Shown: positions 44,150 through 51,547 of the stretch, one piece after another
Layout: every line of letters begins with the position of its first letter
Position numbering within the stretch: position 1 is the stretch's first letter
Source: Natroniella sulfidigena
GTDB taxonomy: Bacteria > Bacillota > Halanaerobiia > Halobacteroidales > Halobacteroidaceae
Assembly (NCBI RefSeq): GCF_023223645.1
Contig: NZ_JALKBY010000002.1
Span: forward strand, 124,001-188,000
Direction of reading: 5' to 3'
Length of the DNA stretch: 64,000 nt
Made by a program: the position numbers and the translations under genes
The notes under the pieces: model-generated
The model's input: only the letters and a program-made list of their open reading frames with translations
Databases searched by the model: none
Told to the model about the DNA's origin: nothing

Positions 44150-44180
44150 TAAAAAACCCTAGCCTCACTAGACTAGGGTA
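44150..44180 (-). terminator. terminator of the CopD-like gene cluster
   Basis: ACCCTAG and CTAGGGT pair on the minus strand, followed by TTTTTTAATTG. Confidence 0.8.
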
Positions 44181-44218: not shown

Positions 44219-44707
44219 TTAAACTACACCATGAACCACAAGAAGGCTAACAATTACAGCACCCCACCAGCCTGTAACAGAAATTACTCCACTAACAGCA
44301 GAAATCATCTCATATCTTTTGATTTCTGCCGTTCTTTCTGTCCACTTTGGAGCAAGTTTAGCAAAGCGAGGGCCAGCATAATAAGTTATAAAGATCCCAT
44401 TTAAAAATACAGCTAATACAAAGAAAAATTTAAGCTGAAAATAAAAGTTTTCACTTAACCATGGTCTAGATAAGATTAAAGGAATCCCTGTCAAGCTCAA
44501 GAGGATAAAACCTAACGAAATCTGACCTGAGAAAATTGGAAATACTTTTGCTAGTGACTTACCCAGTTCGGGCTTAAAATGAAATACTAGTAATAAAAAA
44601 TCAATACTGGCCACACCACCTACAGCAATTATAAAACCTACTATATGTAATATACGCATTAAGGTATCTTCTCCAAAAAAGATGGAATGAATAAAACCTA
44701 GCTCCAT
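44219..44707 (-). CDS. CopD-like four-helix membrane protein
   Basis: A 162-residue protein with four membrane helices. Histidines at H6, H21 and H43, and others in helix 4 (VVHGVV), could bind b-type haem. It ends one base after... the start of the preceding gene's stop, with no gap, so translation is coupled to the haem-domain protein. By size and topology it resembles CopD/DUF-type cytochrome-like proteins. I infer a membrane partner for that protein; a copper role is not indicated by the neighbours. Confidence 0.65.
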   Translation of the reverse strand: MELGFIHSIFFGEDTLMRILHIVGFIIAVGGVASIDFLLLVFHFKPELGKSLAKVFPIFSGQISLGFILLSLTGIPLILSRPWLSENFYFQLKFFFVLAVFLNGIFITYYAGPRFAKLAPKWTERTAEIKRYEMISAVSGVISVTGWWGAVIVSLLVVHGVV

Positions 44708-46117
44708 TTAATTCAGCTCCTTTATCTCACGTATTGCAGCTATTATAAGAATTATACTTCCCACAATAATAATCATAGCTAAAATAACAAATGGCTGTCT
44801 AAACAGTCTTGCTGGCTCTTCTAGCATTACTGCAGCCTTAGCCATATCCTTAGGGTTTTCATGTATATCCCAAATTGACACTTCATTATTTCTGACTTCC
44901 TCATAACCTGCATGATCTTCACTTGTTAACCAACTCCAAGTAACCTGCCCTGGATAAATAACAGGAATCTCGTATTCTTCAATCTGATTCCAATCAGGCT
45001 GGTCACCTTCAATATATGTCGCTTCAATATCAGCATCAGCGCCAAGCCTCAATTCATATGGATAAGAGATATAATGCCATCTACTCCCACTAGAATTCTT
45101 AAATAGACCAAGAGCTATTGTATATTCTTTGCCTTCTTCAAAAGCTTTATCATCTATATAACCTGTATCAAGTTCCCTTCTCATTTCTACAGTATATTGA
45201 TCATCTTCCCAAGTACTATCTCCATCTATTACTGCTCGACTACCTTCAGGTTCTTGTAAGGGTCTGCGAGGTATAGCTGCCCCTTCAAACATTTGCTCTT
45301 CATCAAGAGGAATCATAAAATCTTCATGGAGATAATAAATTTCATCCATATCATACTCTCCCTTTTTCAACTTTTCAAAATCTAATGCTGCAAAACCTAC
45401 TTCATCTGGATCAAACATATATTTCGGGCCAGTCTCTTCATCCCAAGGGTTATTAGTAAATGCACCTTGACCATCATCTCCATGGCGATAGTCCAAAACA
45501 TATCCATCATCCACAGTACCAATAGGATTACCACGATGAGCACGCCATTGCCACAAATCAACAAAAATCCCCTTATCTAAAAGATCATCCAATTTTTCTT
45601 GCGAAAGAGCTTCATCCCAAACTCCTTCCCACCATTGATCACCCTTTCGAGATTGTGGGATAAACTTTCTAACATCATTCCTATCCAAATTCTCCCCTAA
45701 ATGTTCGTCTTCTTGCACACTGGCTGAAGAAACTTCTGTATCTAGAGCACGCAATCCATCATGAACAGTCAACCAACCACCAAAATTATCAAACCCTTTT
45801 ACACTACCATCATCAATCATTACAGTCATTCTATCTTCATATAAGCCATATTTATCTGGGCCAACCGGTGGAGCACCATAACGAACCCATTCCCCATCTT
45901 GATATACTAAATAATCATGAAACCATCCTCGATGTTTCGAATCCCAATTATAACGAAAAAATATATCTTCATCATTATAAGCAACTTGCATGCGAACTGT
46001 TGTCTTTAATTCATCCGGTATGTAGCGGTTATCAGCTTGAGCAAAGCCTTGAAAAAGACCTATACTCAAAAGAATTAACAATGGTATACCGATAAATTTA
46101 CTGCCTTTAAACTTCAT
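44708..46117 (-). CDS. ethylbenzene dehydrogenase-related (EB_dh) haem-domain protein
   Basis: A 469-residue exported, membrane-anchored protein: signal peptide (MKFKGSKFIGIPLLILLSIGLFQGFAQA), a large extracellular domain of the EB_dh/DMSO-reductase gamma type (AYNDEDIFFRYNWDSKHRGWFHDY, VMIDDGSV, WWEGVWDEAL, LWQWRAHRGNPIGTVDDGY, GLFKNSSGSRWHY), and a C-terminal membrane helix (FVILAMIIIVGSIILIIAAI). Relatives bind haem b as an electron-transfer subunit. No molybdenum enzyme gene is near. It adjoins the CopD-like protein and the rnfD copies. Confidence 0.8.
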   Translation of the reverse strand: MKFKGSKFIGIPLLILLSIGLFQGFAQADNRYIPDELKTTVRMQVAYNDEDIFFRYNWDSKHRGWFHDYLVYQDGEWVRYGAPPVGPDKYGLYEDRMTVMIDDGSVKGFDNFGGWLTVHDGLRALDTEVSSASVQEDEHLGENLDRNDVRKFIPQSRKGDQWWEGVWDEALSQEKLDDLLDKGIFVDLWQWRAHRGNPIGTVDDGYVLDYRHGDDGQGAFTNNPWDEETGPKYMFDPDEVGFAALDFEKLKKGEYDMDEIYYLHEDFMIPLDEEQMFEGAAIPRRPLQEPEGSRAVIDGDSTWEDDQYTVEMRRELDTGYIDDKAFEEGKEYTIALGLFKNSSGSRWHYISYPYELRLGADADIEATYIEGDQPDWNQIEEYEIPVIYPGQVTWSWLTSEDHAGYEEVRNNEVSIWDIHENPKDMAKAAVMLEEPARLFRQPFVILAMIIIVGSIILIIAAIREIKELN

Positions 46118-46301
46118 TATCTCCCTCCTATGTAATGATAAAATTTGTAATTAAACCTCCTACTAGTTTAAAGTCATTGTGTAGAACTTCATTTATAATA
46201 AGGTTTACAATTTATTAAGTCTTATCTTATTTATTTCCTTAATTAATTTCTTTATACATCTCATTGAAACTATAGTGATTTATTTCACAATAAACATATA
46301 A

Positions 46302-46340
46302 AGATAAGAGGATTGCAAAAATTGCTAATCCTCTTATCTA
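46302..46340 (-). terminator. terminator after the downstream rnfD copy
   Basis: AGATAAGAGGATTAGCAA and TTGCAATCCTCTTATCT form a long stem; on the minus strand TTTATATG follows. The same hairpin follows the other rnfD copy. Confidence 0.8.
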
Positions 46341-46385
46341 AAATATTCTTATTTAAATATCGACTCTATTTAAGAAATTAACTTC

Positions 46386-47384
46386 TTACTCACTTTTACC
46401 ATAAGCTGTTCGAGCAGTCATACGATCAATAGTCGGTACTAAAAGGTTCATAATCAAAATAGCAAATACAACTCCTCCAACACCAACCCACAGCTCTTGA
46501 GCAAAGAAAGCTATTCTAAACAAAGCAATTAAAGCTCCAATTCCAATCCCAAAGATAATTCCACCCTTATCTGTAATAGGGCTAGTAACCCAATCTGTAG
46601 CCATAAAAGTAGCTCCAAAAAATAGACCCCCAGATAAAATATGATAGATTGGATTCTGTCCAAATAAAGCTGCTAATACAAAGACTGTACTAATAGCTGC
46701 TACAGGAATATATAATTTAATATGACCTTTGTAAACTAGATAAAGGAGGCCTAAAATAACAGCTAACACAGAAGTCTCCCCTAATGAGCCTCCTTCATTA
46801 AGTAAAAATAAATCTATATAATTAGGCATTACTGCTTCTACCTTTTCTCCCATTACCATCAAGGGGGTTGCCTTAGAAAATGCATCTAAAGAACCTATAT
46901 CATATAAATAAGGTGCAAATGCTTCATCAATTTCTACTAAAAATGGAGCAACATAAACCGAACCCATACGTGCTATTAATAGAAAAACACGACTAGCAGC
47001 AGCAGGATTTAAAGGATTATTACCTAATCCCCCCATTAACTCTCTAAAGACTGCAGTAGCAACAAATCCTCCCATAAAATAACTTGGAATAGCCATCCAC
47101 CATGCTGTTGGAGGTAAAGTAAGAGCCAATATAAGTCCAGTAACCAGAGCAGAACCATCACTAAAGCGAATTTTTTCTCCCTTTTTCTTTCTCACCACAG
47201 CTTCACCTAATAAAGCACCTAATACACATGAAACAATTATCATAACAGAATCAAGACCAAAGATAATAAGTGAAGTTAAAGTTACAGGTAATAAAGCAAT
47301 AATTACATCCTGCATAGCATATGAAACTGAAGTTCCTCGATGCAAATGTGGCCCATCTTCAACTAATAACTCAATTTTCATCAT
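46386..47384 (-). CDS. rnfD: RnfD-family membrane subunit, second copy
   Basis: A 332-residue RnfD/NqrB family protein with about nine hydrophobic segments. SKATPL (about 167-172) has the threonine expected to carry covalent FMN; DWVTSPITDKG and GNNPLNPAAASRVF are family blocks. It is nearly a copy of the neighbouring 47727-48725 gene (about 43 differences over 332 positions by eye), and both copies look intact. Acts in the ferredoxin:NAD oxidoreductase that pumps ions. Confidence 0.93.
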   Translation of the reverse strand: MMKIELLVEDGPHLHRGTSVSYAMQDVIIALLPVTLTSLIIFGLDSVMIIVSCVLGALLGEAVVRKKKGEKIRFSDGSALVTGLILALTLPPTAWWMAIPSYFMGGFVATAVFRELMGGLGNNPLNPAAASRVFLLIARMGSVYVAPFLVEIDEAFAPYLYDIGSLDAFSKATPLMVMGEKVEAVMPNYIDLFLLNEGGSLGETSVLAVILGLLYLVYKGHIKLYIPVAAISTVFVLAALFGQNPIYHILSGGLFFGATFMATDWVTSPITDKGGIIFGIGIGALIALFRIAFFAQELWVGVGGVVFAILIMNLLVPTIDRMTARTAYGKSE

Positions 47385-47396
47385 CTCTCACCCGAC

Positions 47397-47540
47397 TTAA
47401 TATTTTTCCTTTAGTTTTCTTAATCTGCTTGTATAACTTTAACTGAACAGACATCAGAACAGATACTACACAATCTAAAGGATGATAATTCTCAACTTCA
47501 TTATAATCATTCTTTCAACTAAATCATTTATTTTATTTAT
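47397..47540 (-). pseudogene. decayed remnant of the rnfC 3' end
   Basis: Aligns with the rnfC 3' end at 48738-48905: LDCVVSVLMSVQLKLYKQIKK corresponds to LDCVECGICSYVCPARRPV-QQIKK, with the last cluster cysteines lost. It lies just ahead of the second rnfD copy, so the duplication took the rnfC tail with rnfD. Confidence 0.85.
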
Positions 47541-47640
47541 GCCCTTGATTAATTTATTTATACATTTAAGGAAAAATATTATATAAATCATTAGATCAAA
47601 AAAGGGTTATAGTGATTATTTTCACAATAACTCACAATAT

Positions 47641-47676
47641 GATAAGAGGATTGCAAAAATTGCAATCCTCTTATCT
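47641..47676 (-). terminator. terminator after the first rnfD copy
   Basis: GATAAGAGGATTGCA and TGCAATCCTCTTATC pair around AAAAAT. Copy of the hairpin at 46302; it would separate the second rnfD copy from the first. Confidence 0.8.
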
Positions 47677-47726
47677 AAAAAATTATTATTTAAATTTTTG
47701 TTCTATCTAAGAAGTCAACTGACTCC

Positions 47727-48725
47727 TTACTCATTTTTACCATAAGCTGTCCGAGCAGTCATACGATCGATAGTCGGCACTAAAAGGTTCATAATCAAGA
47801 TAGCAAATGCAACTCCTCCAACGCCAACCCATAGTTCTTGAACAAAGAAGAGTATTCTAAATAGAGCGACCAAAGCTCCAATTCCAATTCCAAAAATAAT
47901 TCTCCCCTTATCAGTAACAGGACTAGTAACCCAATCTGTAGCCATAAAAGCAGCTCCAAAGATTAAACCACCAGATAGAACATGATGAATCGGATTTTGT
48001 CCAAATAAAGCTGCTAATACAAAGACTGTACTAACTGCTGCTACAGGAATATGCAATTTAATATGACCTTTATAGACTAGATAAAAAAGACCAATAATAA
48101 CAGCCAACACAGAAGTCTCTCCTAGTGAACCTCCTTCATTAAGCAAAAATAGATTTAAGGTACTAGGCATTGCTTCTTCTACCTTTCCTCCCATCACCAT
48201 CAAAGGTGTTGCTTTAGAAAATGCATCTAAAGAACCTATATCATATAAATAAGGTGCAAATGCTTCATTAATCTCTACCAAAGGTTGAGCTACATACACA
48301 GAACTCATACGAGCCATTAATAGAAAAATACGACTCGCAACGGCAGGATTCAAAGGGTTGTTACCTAATCCTCCCATTAACTCTCTAAAAACTGCAGTAG
48401 CAACAAATCCTCCCATGAAATAACTTGGAATGGCCATCCACCATGCTGTTGGAGGTAAAGTAAGAGCCAATATAAGTCCAGTAACCATAGCAGAGCCATC
48501 ACTAAAGCGAGCTTCTTCTCCTTTTTTCTTTCTCACCACAGCTTCACCTAATAAAGCACCTAATACACATGAAACAATTATCATAACAGACTCAAAACCA
48601 AAAATAACAAGTGAAGTTAAAGTCACAGGTACTAAAGCAATAATTACATCCCACATAGCATCAGAAACTGAAAGTCCTTGATGTAAATGTGGCCCATCTT
48701 CAACTAATAACTTAGTTTTCATCAT
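47727..48725 (-). CDS. rnfD: RnfD-family membrane subunit, first copy
   Basis: A 332-residue RnfD. VRKKKGEEARFSDGSAMVTGLILALTLPP, the SKATPL flavin-binding motif and DWVTSPVTDKG are seen. It lies 12 bp after rnfC, the normal order. No rnfG, E, A or B follow; instead comes a terminator and a second rnfD. Confidence 0.94.
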   Translation of the reverse strand: MMKTKLLVEDGPHLHQGLSVSDAMWDVIIALVPVTLTSLVIFGFESVMIIVSCVLGALLGEAVVRKKKGEEARFSDGSAMVTGLILALTLPPTAWWMAIPSYFMGGFVATAVFRELMGGLGNNPLNPAVASRIFLLMARMSSVYVAQPLVEINEAFAPYLYDIGSLDAFSKATPLMVMGGKVEEAMPSTLNLFLLNEGGSLGETSVLAVIIGLFYLVYKGHIKLHIPVAAVSTVFVLAALFGQNPIHHVLSGGLIFGAAFMATDWVTSPVTDKGRIIFGIGIGALVALFRILFFVQELWVGVGGVAFAILIMNLLVPTIDRMTARTAYGKNE

Positions 48726-48737
48726 TTTTCACCCCGC

Positions 48738-50054
48738 TTAATGTTTTTTCGCTGCAATTTCTCCTTTAGCTTTCTTAATCTGTTGCACAACAGGTCGTCT
48801 AGCTGGACAAACATAAGAACAAATACCGCATTCCACACAGTCTAAAGGATAATAATTTTCAGTTTCATCATAATCATTCTCTTCAACTAAAGTACTAATT
48901 TTATTTGGATAAAGACGCATTGGACAATTTTCTACACAAGCACCACACTTCATACAAGAAATGTAGTCATCATTACCTTTCACCATCTTTTCAGGCAAAG
49001 CAATAATTCCACTACTTCCTTTAGTAATAGGAACATTTAAATCGGACTGGGCATTACCAGTCATTGGCCCACCAACAACAACCTTAGTTTTATTCTCAAT
49101 AAATCCACCACACTCATCAACAATGTGTTGAACTGGAGTTCCTATTTTTACTAACAAGTTAGCTGGTTGTTTAATATTCTGTCCAGTTACAGTTACTACT
49201 CTCTCTAGCGAAGGTTTGCCAAAAGCAACTGCCTCGTAAAGAGCAATAGCAGTAGCTACATTTTGAACCAAAGCTCCAACTTCAAAAGGCAAAGCCCCTG
49301 ACGGCACTTCTTTACCCAATACAGTTGTAATTAAATGTTTTTCAGAACCTTGAGGATATTGAGTTGGTACCGATTGAATTTTAATTCTAGAATCATCAGC
49401 CAACCCTTTTAAATTCTTAATAGCATCAGGTTTATTGTCCTCAATTCCAATATAACACTTTTCAGCTCCAACAGCCTTCATTAATAATTTAACTCCAGCA
49501 ATTAATTCCTCCCCTTGTTCTAACATCATTCGATGGTCACAAGTGAGATAAGGTTCACATTCACAAGCGTTGATCAATACAGTATCAATTGGCTTATCAT
49601 CAGGTGGGCTTAATTTTACAGAAGTAGGAAAACTTGCTCCTCCCATACCCACAATTCCTGCTTCTCTAGCAGCCTCAACAATCTCTTCTTCACTTACCTC
49701 ATCTATACTTCTTTCTTGTTCATAGGAAATACTCTCCTGCTCTTGAGCAACCTCAATAACAATACTCTCAACTGAATCACCACTTGCATTTGGTCTTGGT
49801 TCAATAGCCTTTACAGTACCTGAAAGACTCGCATGAACAGGTGCACTAACAAACTCAGAACTCTCACCAATCTTTTGACCGGCTTTAACCTCATCTCCAA
49901 CCTCTACTAAAGGCTCGCAAGGTGCACCAATATGCTGTGACAATGGAATAATAATTTCTTCTGGCATACTAATCTCAGTAATAGGTTCATCTTTAGCTAA
50001 TTCCTTATTATAAGGTAGATGAATCCCTCCTTGAAAATCACCACGTGTAGCCAT
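48738..50054 (-). CDS. rnfC: RnfC electron-transport subunit
   Basis: A 438-residue RnfC. N-terminal FQGGIHLPYNKELAKD, the nucleotide/FMN region AREAGIVGMGGASFPTSVKL and ACECEPYLTCDHRMML, an SLBB domain, and two C-terminal [4Fe-4S] motifs: CMKCGACVENCP and CVECGICSYVCP. The NADH-side subunit of the Rnf complex. The start at 50054 has GGGGAGG upstream. Confidence 0.96.
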   Translation of the reverse strand: MATRGDFQGGIHLPYNKELAKDEPITEISMPEEIIIPLSQHIGAPCEPLVEVGDEVKAGQKIGESSEFVSAPVHASLSGTVKAIEPRPNASGDSVESIVIEVAQEQESISYEQERSIDEVSEEEIVEAAREAGIVGMGGASFPTSVKLSPPDDKPIDTVLINACECEPYLTCDHRMMLEQGEELIAGVKLLMKAVGAEKCYIGIEDNKPDAIKNLKGLADDSRIKIQSVPTQYPQGSEKHLITTVLGKEVPSGALPFEVGALVQNVATAIALYEAVAFGKPSLERVVTVTGQNIKQPANLLVKIGTPVQHIVDECGGFIENKTKVVVGGPMTGNAQSDLNVPITKGSSGIIALPEKMVKGNDDYISCMKCGACVENCPMRLYPNKISTLVEENDYDETENYYPLDCVECGICSYVCPARRPVVQQIKKAKGEIAAKKH

Positions 50055-50160: not shown

Positions 50161-51123
50161 CTATTTTTCTCTACTAACTTGATATCCTAAAATATAATTC
50201 AAATGTTGTTTAGCTTCATTCCCTGGTAATTGAGCTAAATGATACTTGGCTCTATCTAAAAACCGCTCTTCTAATTGCTGACTTTTAGCAAGAGCTCCTG
50301 TATTCTTTACCAGTTCAGAGATCAAAATAGCATCATCTTCTGTAATAGATTCTTTAGTTAAAATCTCCTTAACCTGTTTGTTACTCTCTTTAGACTCTAA
50401 CAGATAAACAATAGGAAGGGTATAAATCCCTGCTAACAAATCTTGGCCAACAGCTTTTCCTACTTTTCTCTTTTCTCCAACAAAATCTAAGATATCATCT
50501 CGAATTTGAAAAGCCATTCCCATTTCCAAACCTAAATTATATAAATTAGAAAGAGTAGTATTGCGAATGCCACTTTCATATGCACCAACATAAGTGCTAA
50601 AAGCAAATAACAAAGCTGTTTTACGTCTAATACGGCGTAAATAACCATTGATAGTTAGATCAGGATCGAATTTACTCTCATACTGATCAACCTCACCCTC
50701 ACAGATTAACTTCACAGTTTGATTGAATTTTAATGCTGCTTTACGTGACAAATGCTCTAAAAAAAGATTATAAGCTTTAGTTAATAAAAAATCACCAACA
50801 AAGACTGCAACATCTTTTCCAAATTTATTTTGAGTTGTTAATTCACCTCGGCGTGTACTTGCTTCATCTATTATATCATCATGAACTAGAGTAGCCATAT
50901 GAAGCAGTTCCAAACCAGAAGCAATCTTGATCTTCTTTTCAGATTGATCATCACCAAATTCACTAGCCAGGATCATCAAGATCGGCCTTAATCTCTTACC
51001 ACCAGCTTTAACTAGATCAGTAACTGCTACATTAATTAATTCCTGTCTGGAATTAGCATATTCAATTATAAACTCATCTACTTGATCTATTAAAGCTTTA
51101 AATTTACTTTCCGTAGTAACCAC
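50161..51123 (-). CDS. hepT: polyprenyl (heptaprenyl-type) diphosphate synthase
   Basis: A 320-residue all-helical prenyltransferase. GGKRLRPILM, the first aspartate-rich motif LVHDDIIDEAS and the second FQIRDDILDFVG are present. Builds the side chain of menaquinone or a similar long prenyl chain. Start is GTG at 51123, eight bases after AAAGGAG. The menG/ubiE remnant lies directly upstream, as in men gene clusters (hepS-menG-hepT). Confidence 0.92.
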   Translation of the reverse strand: MVTTESKFKALIDQVDEFIIEYANSRQELINVAVTDLVKAGGKRLRPILMILASEFGDDQSEKKIKIASGLELLHMATLVHDDIIDEASTRRGELTTQNKFGKDVAVFVGDFLLTKAYNLFLEHLSRKAALKFNQTVKLICEGEVDQYESKFDPDLTINGYLRRIRRKTALLFAFSTYVGAYESGIRNTTLSNLYNLGLEMGMAFQIRDDILDFVGEKRKVGKAVGQDLLAGIYTLPIVYLLESKESNKQVKEILTKESITEDDAILISELVKNTGALAKSQQLEERFLDRAKYHLAQLPGNEAKQHLNYILGYQVSREK

Positions 51124-51263
51124 AATTTCAACTCCTTTTAATTTCAAAATAATATATATTAATTAATAACTAAACTACAAGCCAATAATTTGATGACAAT
51201 TTTAATATTATTTGAAATCTAATTATGAAAAAATGGATTCTTTTTACCAACTATTCAGTTATT

Positions 51264-51416
51264 TTATGCCTTATAGACAGCAATACCTACTCCAACCGTA
51301 AGTTTAAAATAACCTACATCTTTAAATCCATCTTCAATTAACATTTCACGTAAGTGCTCCTGATTAGGAAAGGCTTTTAAAGATTCCGTAAGATATAATC
51401 TTTTAGCAGTGTAACC
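51264..51416 (-). pseudogene. menG/ubiE methyltransferase C-terminal remnant
   Basis: A 50-codon open stretch ending in a stop: YLTESLKAFPNQEHLREMLI, GFKDVGYFKLTVGVGIAVYKA. This matches the end of demethylmenaquinone methyltransferases (SVKAFPDQEEL.., GGIVALH). The preceding 120 bases show no catalytic domain. So the gene is a fragment, with hepT intact downstream. Confidence 0.8.
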
Positions 51417-51547
51417 ATTTCATTATTCCTAAATATTTGACAATAAAACTTTCACAATTGATTTAATTTTATTATCCCAAATATTATAAATAAAACTCTA
51501 AAAACCCCTTACAAGATAGCACCATAGTATAGATAAATACCACTAAT

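Follow-up and report, generated by a model that had tools for sequence, protein, structure and literature searches.

Genes of the locus

We analysed a window of 64,000 bp from the draft genome of Natroniella sulfidigena (GCF_023223645.1; 2.6 Mb in 32 contigs, 98.7% complete), comprising positions 124,001 to 188,000 of contig NZ_JALKBY010000002.1, in which genes for RnfC and RnfD, two subunits of the Rnf complex, lie beside genes for two putative haem proteins. Coordinates are those of the window, and all features of the locus are on the minus strand. An earlier note, made from the sequence alone, had proposed these genes as a membrane electron path, and the open reading frame (ORF) list together with Pfam and NCBIfam profile searches finds every gene that it named. 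The minus-strand order is rnfC, a first copy of rnfD, a decayed rnfC tail, a second copy of rnfD, an EB_dh-family gene and a gene for a four-helix membrane protein.

The rnfC gene (48738..50054) encodes 438 aa and matches TIGR01945 at 554 bits (cut-off 246) as well as PF01512, RnfC_N and SLBB. A strong ribosome-binding site precedes its ATG at 50054, and the flavin mononucleotide (FMN) motif GMGGASFP and two CxxCxxCxxxCP [4Fe-4S] motifs can be read in the protein. The first rnfD (47727..48725) encodes an unfused protein of 332 aa with PF03116 as its sole Pfam domain (TIGR01946 240 bits, cut-off 207), which retains the flavinylation threonine (SKATPL). The second rnfD (46386..47384), also 332 aa with PF03116 and above the TIGR01946 cut-off, is 87% identical to the first at the protein level, and the xxATPL motif is present in both. 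Between the two, at about 47392..47514, a copy of the rnfC 3' end has decayed to a pseudogene fragment (tblastn E 1e-9, 44% over 45 aa; repeats). Because the rnfC 3' end was copied too, a tandem duplication of about 1.34 kb most readily accounts for the second rnfD. With a dN/dS of 0.205 between the copies, and with both passing the RnfD cut-off, both look maintained, and copy 2 appears to be under purifying selection. The earlier statement that only rnfC and rnfD of the six Rnf genes are present holds in that no RnfG, E, A or B is encoded in the locus, but it missed the second rnfD and the rnfC remnant. One long hairpin (GATAAGAGGATTGCAA...) recurs 3' of both rnfD copies (47641-47676 and 46303-46349); these hairpins were considered as terminators, but they are without a T-run.

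The next gene (44708..46117) encodes an exported EB_dh-family protein of 469 aa (PF09459 151 bits, cut-off 33) with a signal-peptide-like N-terminus, the EB_dh domain, a C-terminal 'YPG...WLT..HAG...WDIH' domain and a transmembrane anchor (about 444-462), in agreement with the earlier description of an exported haem-type protein with a single C-terminal anchor. The last gene (44219..44707) encodes a CopD-like membrane protein of 162 aa, or of 146 aa if counted from Met17, which lies close to the starts of its homologues. It has no NCBIfam match and no Pfam match above the curated cut-off (CopD/DUF2269/DUF4149), and its relatives give sub-threshold DUF4149 and DUF2269 matches only. Its model is helical, a predicted four-helix bundle (predicted local distance difference test score, pLDDT, 74), and Arg18, His21 and Lys93 are conserved in the alignment, in line with the earlier label of a histidine-containing four-helix membrane protein. 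Past this gene lies a terminator-like hairpin (44156..44179), which comes from a consensus scan only and belongs to a class no more numerous in the region than in shuffles.

A separate clade of RnfC-RnfD pairs

The genome also carries a complete canonical Rnf operon in the order C-D-G-E-A-B on another contig (C1; L007 4907-9879), which contains the only PF02508 pair of the genome, and it encodes one ApbE flavin transferase. In this operon C, D, E, A and B are supported by NCBIfam; the gene at the rnfG position matches no NCBIfam family strongly, and its assignment comes from gene order and a flavinylation-like 'AGATISS' stretch. The earlier note had suggested looking for rnfG, E, A, B and ApbE elsewhere, and had reasoned that an operon without its own C and D would make the window genes its missing parts. 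Since the canonical operon has both subunits, that explanation is ruled out, and we refer to the window genes as an orphan pair.

To place the pair, the window RnfD was used as query against 59 genomes of the class and the window RnfC against 398 phylum genomes, and pairs were sorted as orphan or canonical according to whether the fetched neighbourhoods contained G, E, A and B. Because the loci were chosen as those most similar to the window proteins, the sample is biased toward the orphan clade. In the RnfD tree all orphan copies (16/16) form one group with support 100/100, and there is one label change among 61 rows. In the RnfC tree 14 orphan copies group at 98/89, together with one RnfC from the divergent cluster L071. 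The flavinylation motif (xxATPL) is kept in 16/16 orphan RnfD proteins, and a tryptophan in the FMATDW motif is present in 16/16 orphan versus 0/45 canonical RnfD, which have Met, Tyr or another residue there. Short insertions are specific to the subclade of the window RnfD, one of them just before the FMN threonine. It is very improbable that the orphan C and D act as exchangeable subunits of the canonical complex, working with its G, E, A and B. Such a swap would be favoured by the presence of the six canonical genes in the genome and by the homology of RnfC and RnfD throughout; however, the separate clades, the clade-specific residue and the insertions near the FMN site argue against it, and so do orphan pairs repeatedly fixed beside exported molybdoenzymes without G, E, A or B.

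Two divergent clusters stand apart from this division. In L071 (6535-11688, G044) rnfD-G-E-A are followed by the orphan-clade RnfC and preceded by a 307-aa protein without a Pfam match, and no rnfB was seen in this stretch. The cluster in L072 (6221-11826, G011) looks hybrid, with a divergent RnfC (28% to that of the window), RnfD, G, E and A, and with the place of RnfB taken by a 363-aa protein that has an NqrF-like 2Fe-2S-type N-terminus.

The neighbours of the orphan pairs fall into recurrent arrangements. Genes for an FdhE-like protein, FdnG, FdnH, RnfC and RnfD follow one another in G015, G018, G022 and G396, and G109 has the same order (L057-L059, L111, L114). The cytochrome b subunit gene (FdnI) was not found in these clusters; relative to formate dehydrogenase-N (FdnGHI), RnfC-RnfD thus stand in the place of FdnI behind the FdnG and FdnH homologues, whereas the window itself is without FdnGH. 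FdnG is split into two adjacent open frames, as would fit an in-frame TGA that probably encodes selenocysteine. In G396 FdnG reaches 938 bits against TIGR01553 (cut-off 814), and the Fe-S subunit best matches the formate dehydrogenase beta family, below its cut-off. A PhsA-like exported molybdoenzyme with an Fe-S subunit and a NarJ-type chaperone takes the place of FdnGH in G063.

Closer to the window arrangement, G036 has UbiA, rnfC, rnfD, a polyprenyl diphosphate synthetase, the CopD-like gene, an exported cytochrome b5-type protein and metF, and G031 has UbiA, the polyprenyl synthetase, the CopD-like gene, the cytochrome b5-type protein, metF, rnfC and rnfD, a linkage that is suggestive, as the cluster spans two contigs joined by an exact 121-bp overlap inside metF. 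Hence, in the window genome, G036 and G031 the orphan pair is accompanied by a CopD-like gene and an exported b-haem-type protein, and the haem-type partner switches family (EB_dh in the window, cytochrome b5 in the other two), whereas RnfC, RnfD and the CopD-like protein are retained. The same-genus genome G001 has menG, the polyprenyl synthetase, rnfC, rnfD and nothing further. Conservation of the neighbourhood, which the earlier note had named as a check, is therefore partial.

The two putative haem proteins

Convincing CopD-like homologues occur in 3 of the 59 class genomes (the window genome, G036 and G031), each time in the orphan rnfC-rnfD cluster, which argues that the adjacency is more than chance. 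Among the 398 phylum genomes the search returned only the protein of the window and one marginal partial match. Likeness of the CopD-like protein to cytochromes b6f, b561 and bd was considered, and it could not be told from likeness to unrelated bundles.

EB_dh proteins are uncommon in the phylum, occurring in 8 of 398 genomes, and a search of 60 sampled genomes related to that of the window yielded no relative; the three nearest loci are 33-40% identical. Most relatives carry CxxxCH in the EB_dh domain, and several also carry a second CxxCH. The window protein has no cysteine: His119 aligns with the first haem-c motif, His419 stands at the CxxCH position, and His402 is conserved. The cytochrome-c assembly family PF01578, the only maturation family tested, was not found in the window genome, but it is present in four genomes with haem-c motifs in their EB_dh proteins. 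Because all cysteines are lost, the histidines kept and PF01578 absent, the simplest reading is that covalent haem c has been replaced by non-covalent haem b, possibly with a bis-histidine site at His402/His419. A profile search of the PDB gave weak matches to NxrC (7b04_C) and EbdC (2ivf_C), a single-sequence search of the PDB gave nothing, and the score against TIGR03477 was 13 bits (cut-off 170).

The EB_dh domain is common to the window protein, the gamma subunit of EbDH and related type II dimethyl sulfoxide reductases (PMC8840923) and FoxC (PMC10654088). The window protein differs from these in its extra C-terminal domain and transmembrane anchor, in the loss of the haem-c cysteines of its relatives and in that no alpha/beta molybdoenzyme lies in the locus. 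The earlier note had likewise seen no molybdoenzyme for it, and no ORF between 37 and 59 kb encodes a molybdoenzyme alpha or Fe-S beta subunit; the rest of the genome was not searched.

Several relatives of the EB_dh protein have neighbourhoods of their own. The 'YPG...WLT..H' domain is N-terminal in betaproteobacteria (L005 3787-5130, L006 7905-9236) and C-terminal in the window, in L004 and partly in L062, an arrangement that, judged by the aligned sequences, is a circular permutation. The haem-c EB_dh protein of L006 (4411-9236) has as neighbours a DmsE decahaem cytochrome and an MtrB/PioB protein, which as a pair are linked to extracellular electron transfer, and that of L005 (3787-7820) lies beside an aldehyde ferredoxin oxidoreductase-like gene. 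L004 (6746-8832), from a Nitriliruptoraceae metagenome-assembled genome (MAG), has an EB_dh protein that is anchored and carries no haem-c motifs; the next gene encodes a membrane protein of 203 aa without a Pfam match. This two-gene unit resembles that of the window and has no rnf nearby.

A possible outward electron route

In the published Rnf structures electrons pass between RnfG FMN, RnfD FMN near the periplasmic side, RnfD riboflavin, the RnfC clusters, RnfC FMN and nicotinamide adenine dinucleotide (NAD) (PMC12174285). By this path C and D make up the half of the complex that runs between NAD(H) and the outer face. We propose, at about even confidence, that the orphan RnfC-RnfD pair is a reduced two-subunit Rnf that links NAD(H) with the outer face and in the window passes electrons outward to a haem module, directly or via menaquinone. 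RnfC, with FMN and two [4Fe-4S] clusters, would exchange electrons with NADH, and RnfD, with riboflavin and an FMN bound covalently at the conserved threonine, would take them across the membrane independently of RnfG, E, A and B. An exported redox partner may dock at the site of RnfG, as the recurrent pairing with exported enzymes suggests. In related clusters this partner would be FdnGH or another exported molybdoenzyme; in the window it would be the CopD-like membrane protein and the anchored EB_dh protein, perhaps in one complex, which would probably be fed electrons from NADH, directly or through menaquinone, and would hand them to an acceptor outside the membrane. The path in the earlier note, from NADH and RnfC over the RnfD flavin and a b-type membrane haem to an outside acceptor, fits this anatomy and the recurrence of orphan pairs beside exported redox enzymes, but it does not allow for the variable haem proteins, a possible quinone step or two rnfD genes.

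The direction of flow may differ between the clusters. For the FdnGH relatives the natural direction would be from formate to NAD+; with formate oxidation outside the cell and NAD+ reduction within, the transfer of electrons would by itself generate membrane potential. The haem b of EbDH has a potential of +256 mV (PMC8840923), and a haem of this type would favour NADH oxidation and outward flow in the window. The opposite case, in which the haem module takes electrons from an external donor and RnfD-RnfC passes them to NAD+, is the most improbable of the alternatives: formate to NAD+ is natural for the FdnGH-linked relatives, and NAD+ is what RnfC reduces when the Rnf reaction runs forward (PMC12174285), but a haem b at the EbDH potential is unsuited to NAD+ reduction and no donor enzyme lies in the locus. 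More broadly, and tentatively, the orphan RnfCD may be a reused NAD(H)-linked module, which with an exported formate dehydrogenase would form a formate:NAD+ loop that builds potential without Rnf pumping or quinone, and with haem proteins would send NADH electrons outward.

The most constant neighbours in the subclade of the window are polyprenyl and menaquinone genes, which makes a quinone step a serious possibility besides direct haem reduction. Directly upstream of rnfC lies a polyprenyl diphosphate synthetase gene (50161..51147; PF00348, best NCBIfam match TIGR02748 below cut-off), a gene that neighbours rnfCD in G001, G036 and G031 as well, and beyond it a menG/ubiE remnant (51270..51419; tblastn 48% over 50 aa, E 9e-12; PF01209 fragment), which is intact at the corresponding place in G001. 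In the window genome menF, D, C, E, B and A lie in one cluster, each above its NCBIfam cut-off, with menG elsewhere. With this pathway and the synthetase beside rnfC, a menaquinone link to rnfCD is plausible. A stronger version, in which RnfCD alone is a minimal NADH:menaquinone oxidoreductase and the CopD-like protein with EB_dh or cytochrome b5 is a separate quinol-oxidising or unrelated unit, seems unlikely. It would suit the synthetase, the men cluster, the menG or UbiA alongside and the G001 pair without haem genes. Against it, the CopD-like gene tracks orphan rnfCD, and G015 has FdnGH with orphan rnfCD and no UbiA was found there, so quinone is not the general partner.

Several observations weigh against the route to the haem module that we favour. 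NqrB forms its quinone site from N-terminal helices that RnfD does not have, which speaks against direct quinone reduction, in the stronger quinone version as well (PMC12174285). The Met/Lys haem ligands could not be mapped in the EB_dh protein, as the profile alignment to 2ivf_C misses the ligand region, and its AlphaFold model was poor (pLDDT 44, 5 sequences) and was not used. Fold searches of the PDB with the CopD-like protein were uninformative, returning generic four-helix bundles (best Foldseek E 0.65). A gap of 268 bp separates rnfD copy 2 from the EB_dh gene, and G001 has rnfC-rnfD but neither the EB_dh nor the CopD-like gene; the haem proteins are therefore a variable add-on that RnfCD does not need. 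The gap would also suit an unrelated, horizontally acquired EB_dh and CopD-like pair that lies after rnfD by chance, as would the absence of EB_dh from G001 and all other sampled relatives, that of the CopD-like gene from most, and the similar pair without rnf in L004. We consider this quite improbable, since in G036 and G031 the CopD-like gene lies in the orphan rnfCD cluster with another exported haem-type protein, and no convincing copy was found away from the cluster.

Known systems share parts of this arrangement. The Na+/H+-translocating ferredoxin:NAD+ oxidoreductase RnfCDGEAB (PMC12174285) has the same FMN, Fe-S and flavinylation motifs in C and D, whereas the window pair is without G, E, A and B, falls in a clade of its own and is joined by exported partners that are not RnfG. 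NQR/RNF-like two-subunit systems (PMC8238504, PMC10979944) are likewise a reduced, Rnf/Nqr-derived one-way route outward, but they combine an NqrB-NqrF fusion that is missing the NqrB threonine with an FMN_bind protein, whereas in the window RnfC is paired with an unfused RnfD in which the threonine is retained, and no FMN_bind gene was seen in the ORF list of the locus. In the haloalkaliphilic syntroph Ca. Syntrophonatronum acetioxidans C and D are reported without E, A and B, as in the window, but its incomplete MAG has two rnfG genes, the partial Rnf was read as a Na+ pump and no haem partner is described (PMC6295475). The extra RnfC of Acetobacterium woodii also serves as an NADH module outside Rnf, but in a MetVF-RnfC2 heterotrimer without RnfD (PMC7911925, PMC9430772); no metVF lies beside the window genes, although metF is adjacent in G031 and G036. 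We found no description of orphan RnfC-RnfD as a module, or of FdnGH-RnfCD, in the open literature, with most subscription journals outside this coverage. The flavin-based extracellular electron transfer locus of Listeria (Ndh2, EetA, EetB, PplA, DmkA/B) has in common with the window an NADH side together with prenyl/naphthoquinone genes.

Rnf is usually treated as a six-subunit pump, and orphan RnfC-RnfD pairs are easily taken for incomplete Rnf operons during annotation. Here, the pair looks like a reusable module that carries electrons between NADH and the cell exterior. If so, the NAD-side half of Rnf would work alone as a membrane adaptor, which would explain how some anaerobes link exported formate dehydrogenases to NAD(H), and the window locus suggests an outward route for NADH electrons in a bacterium that also encodes menaquinone synthesis.

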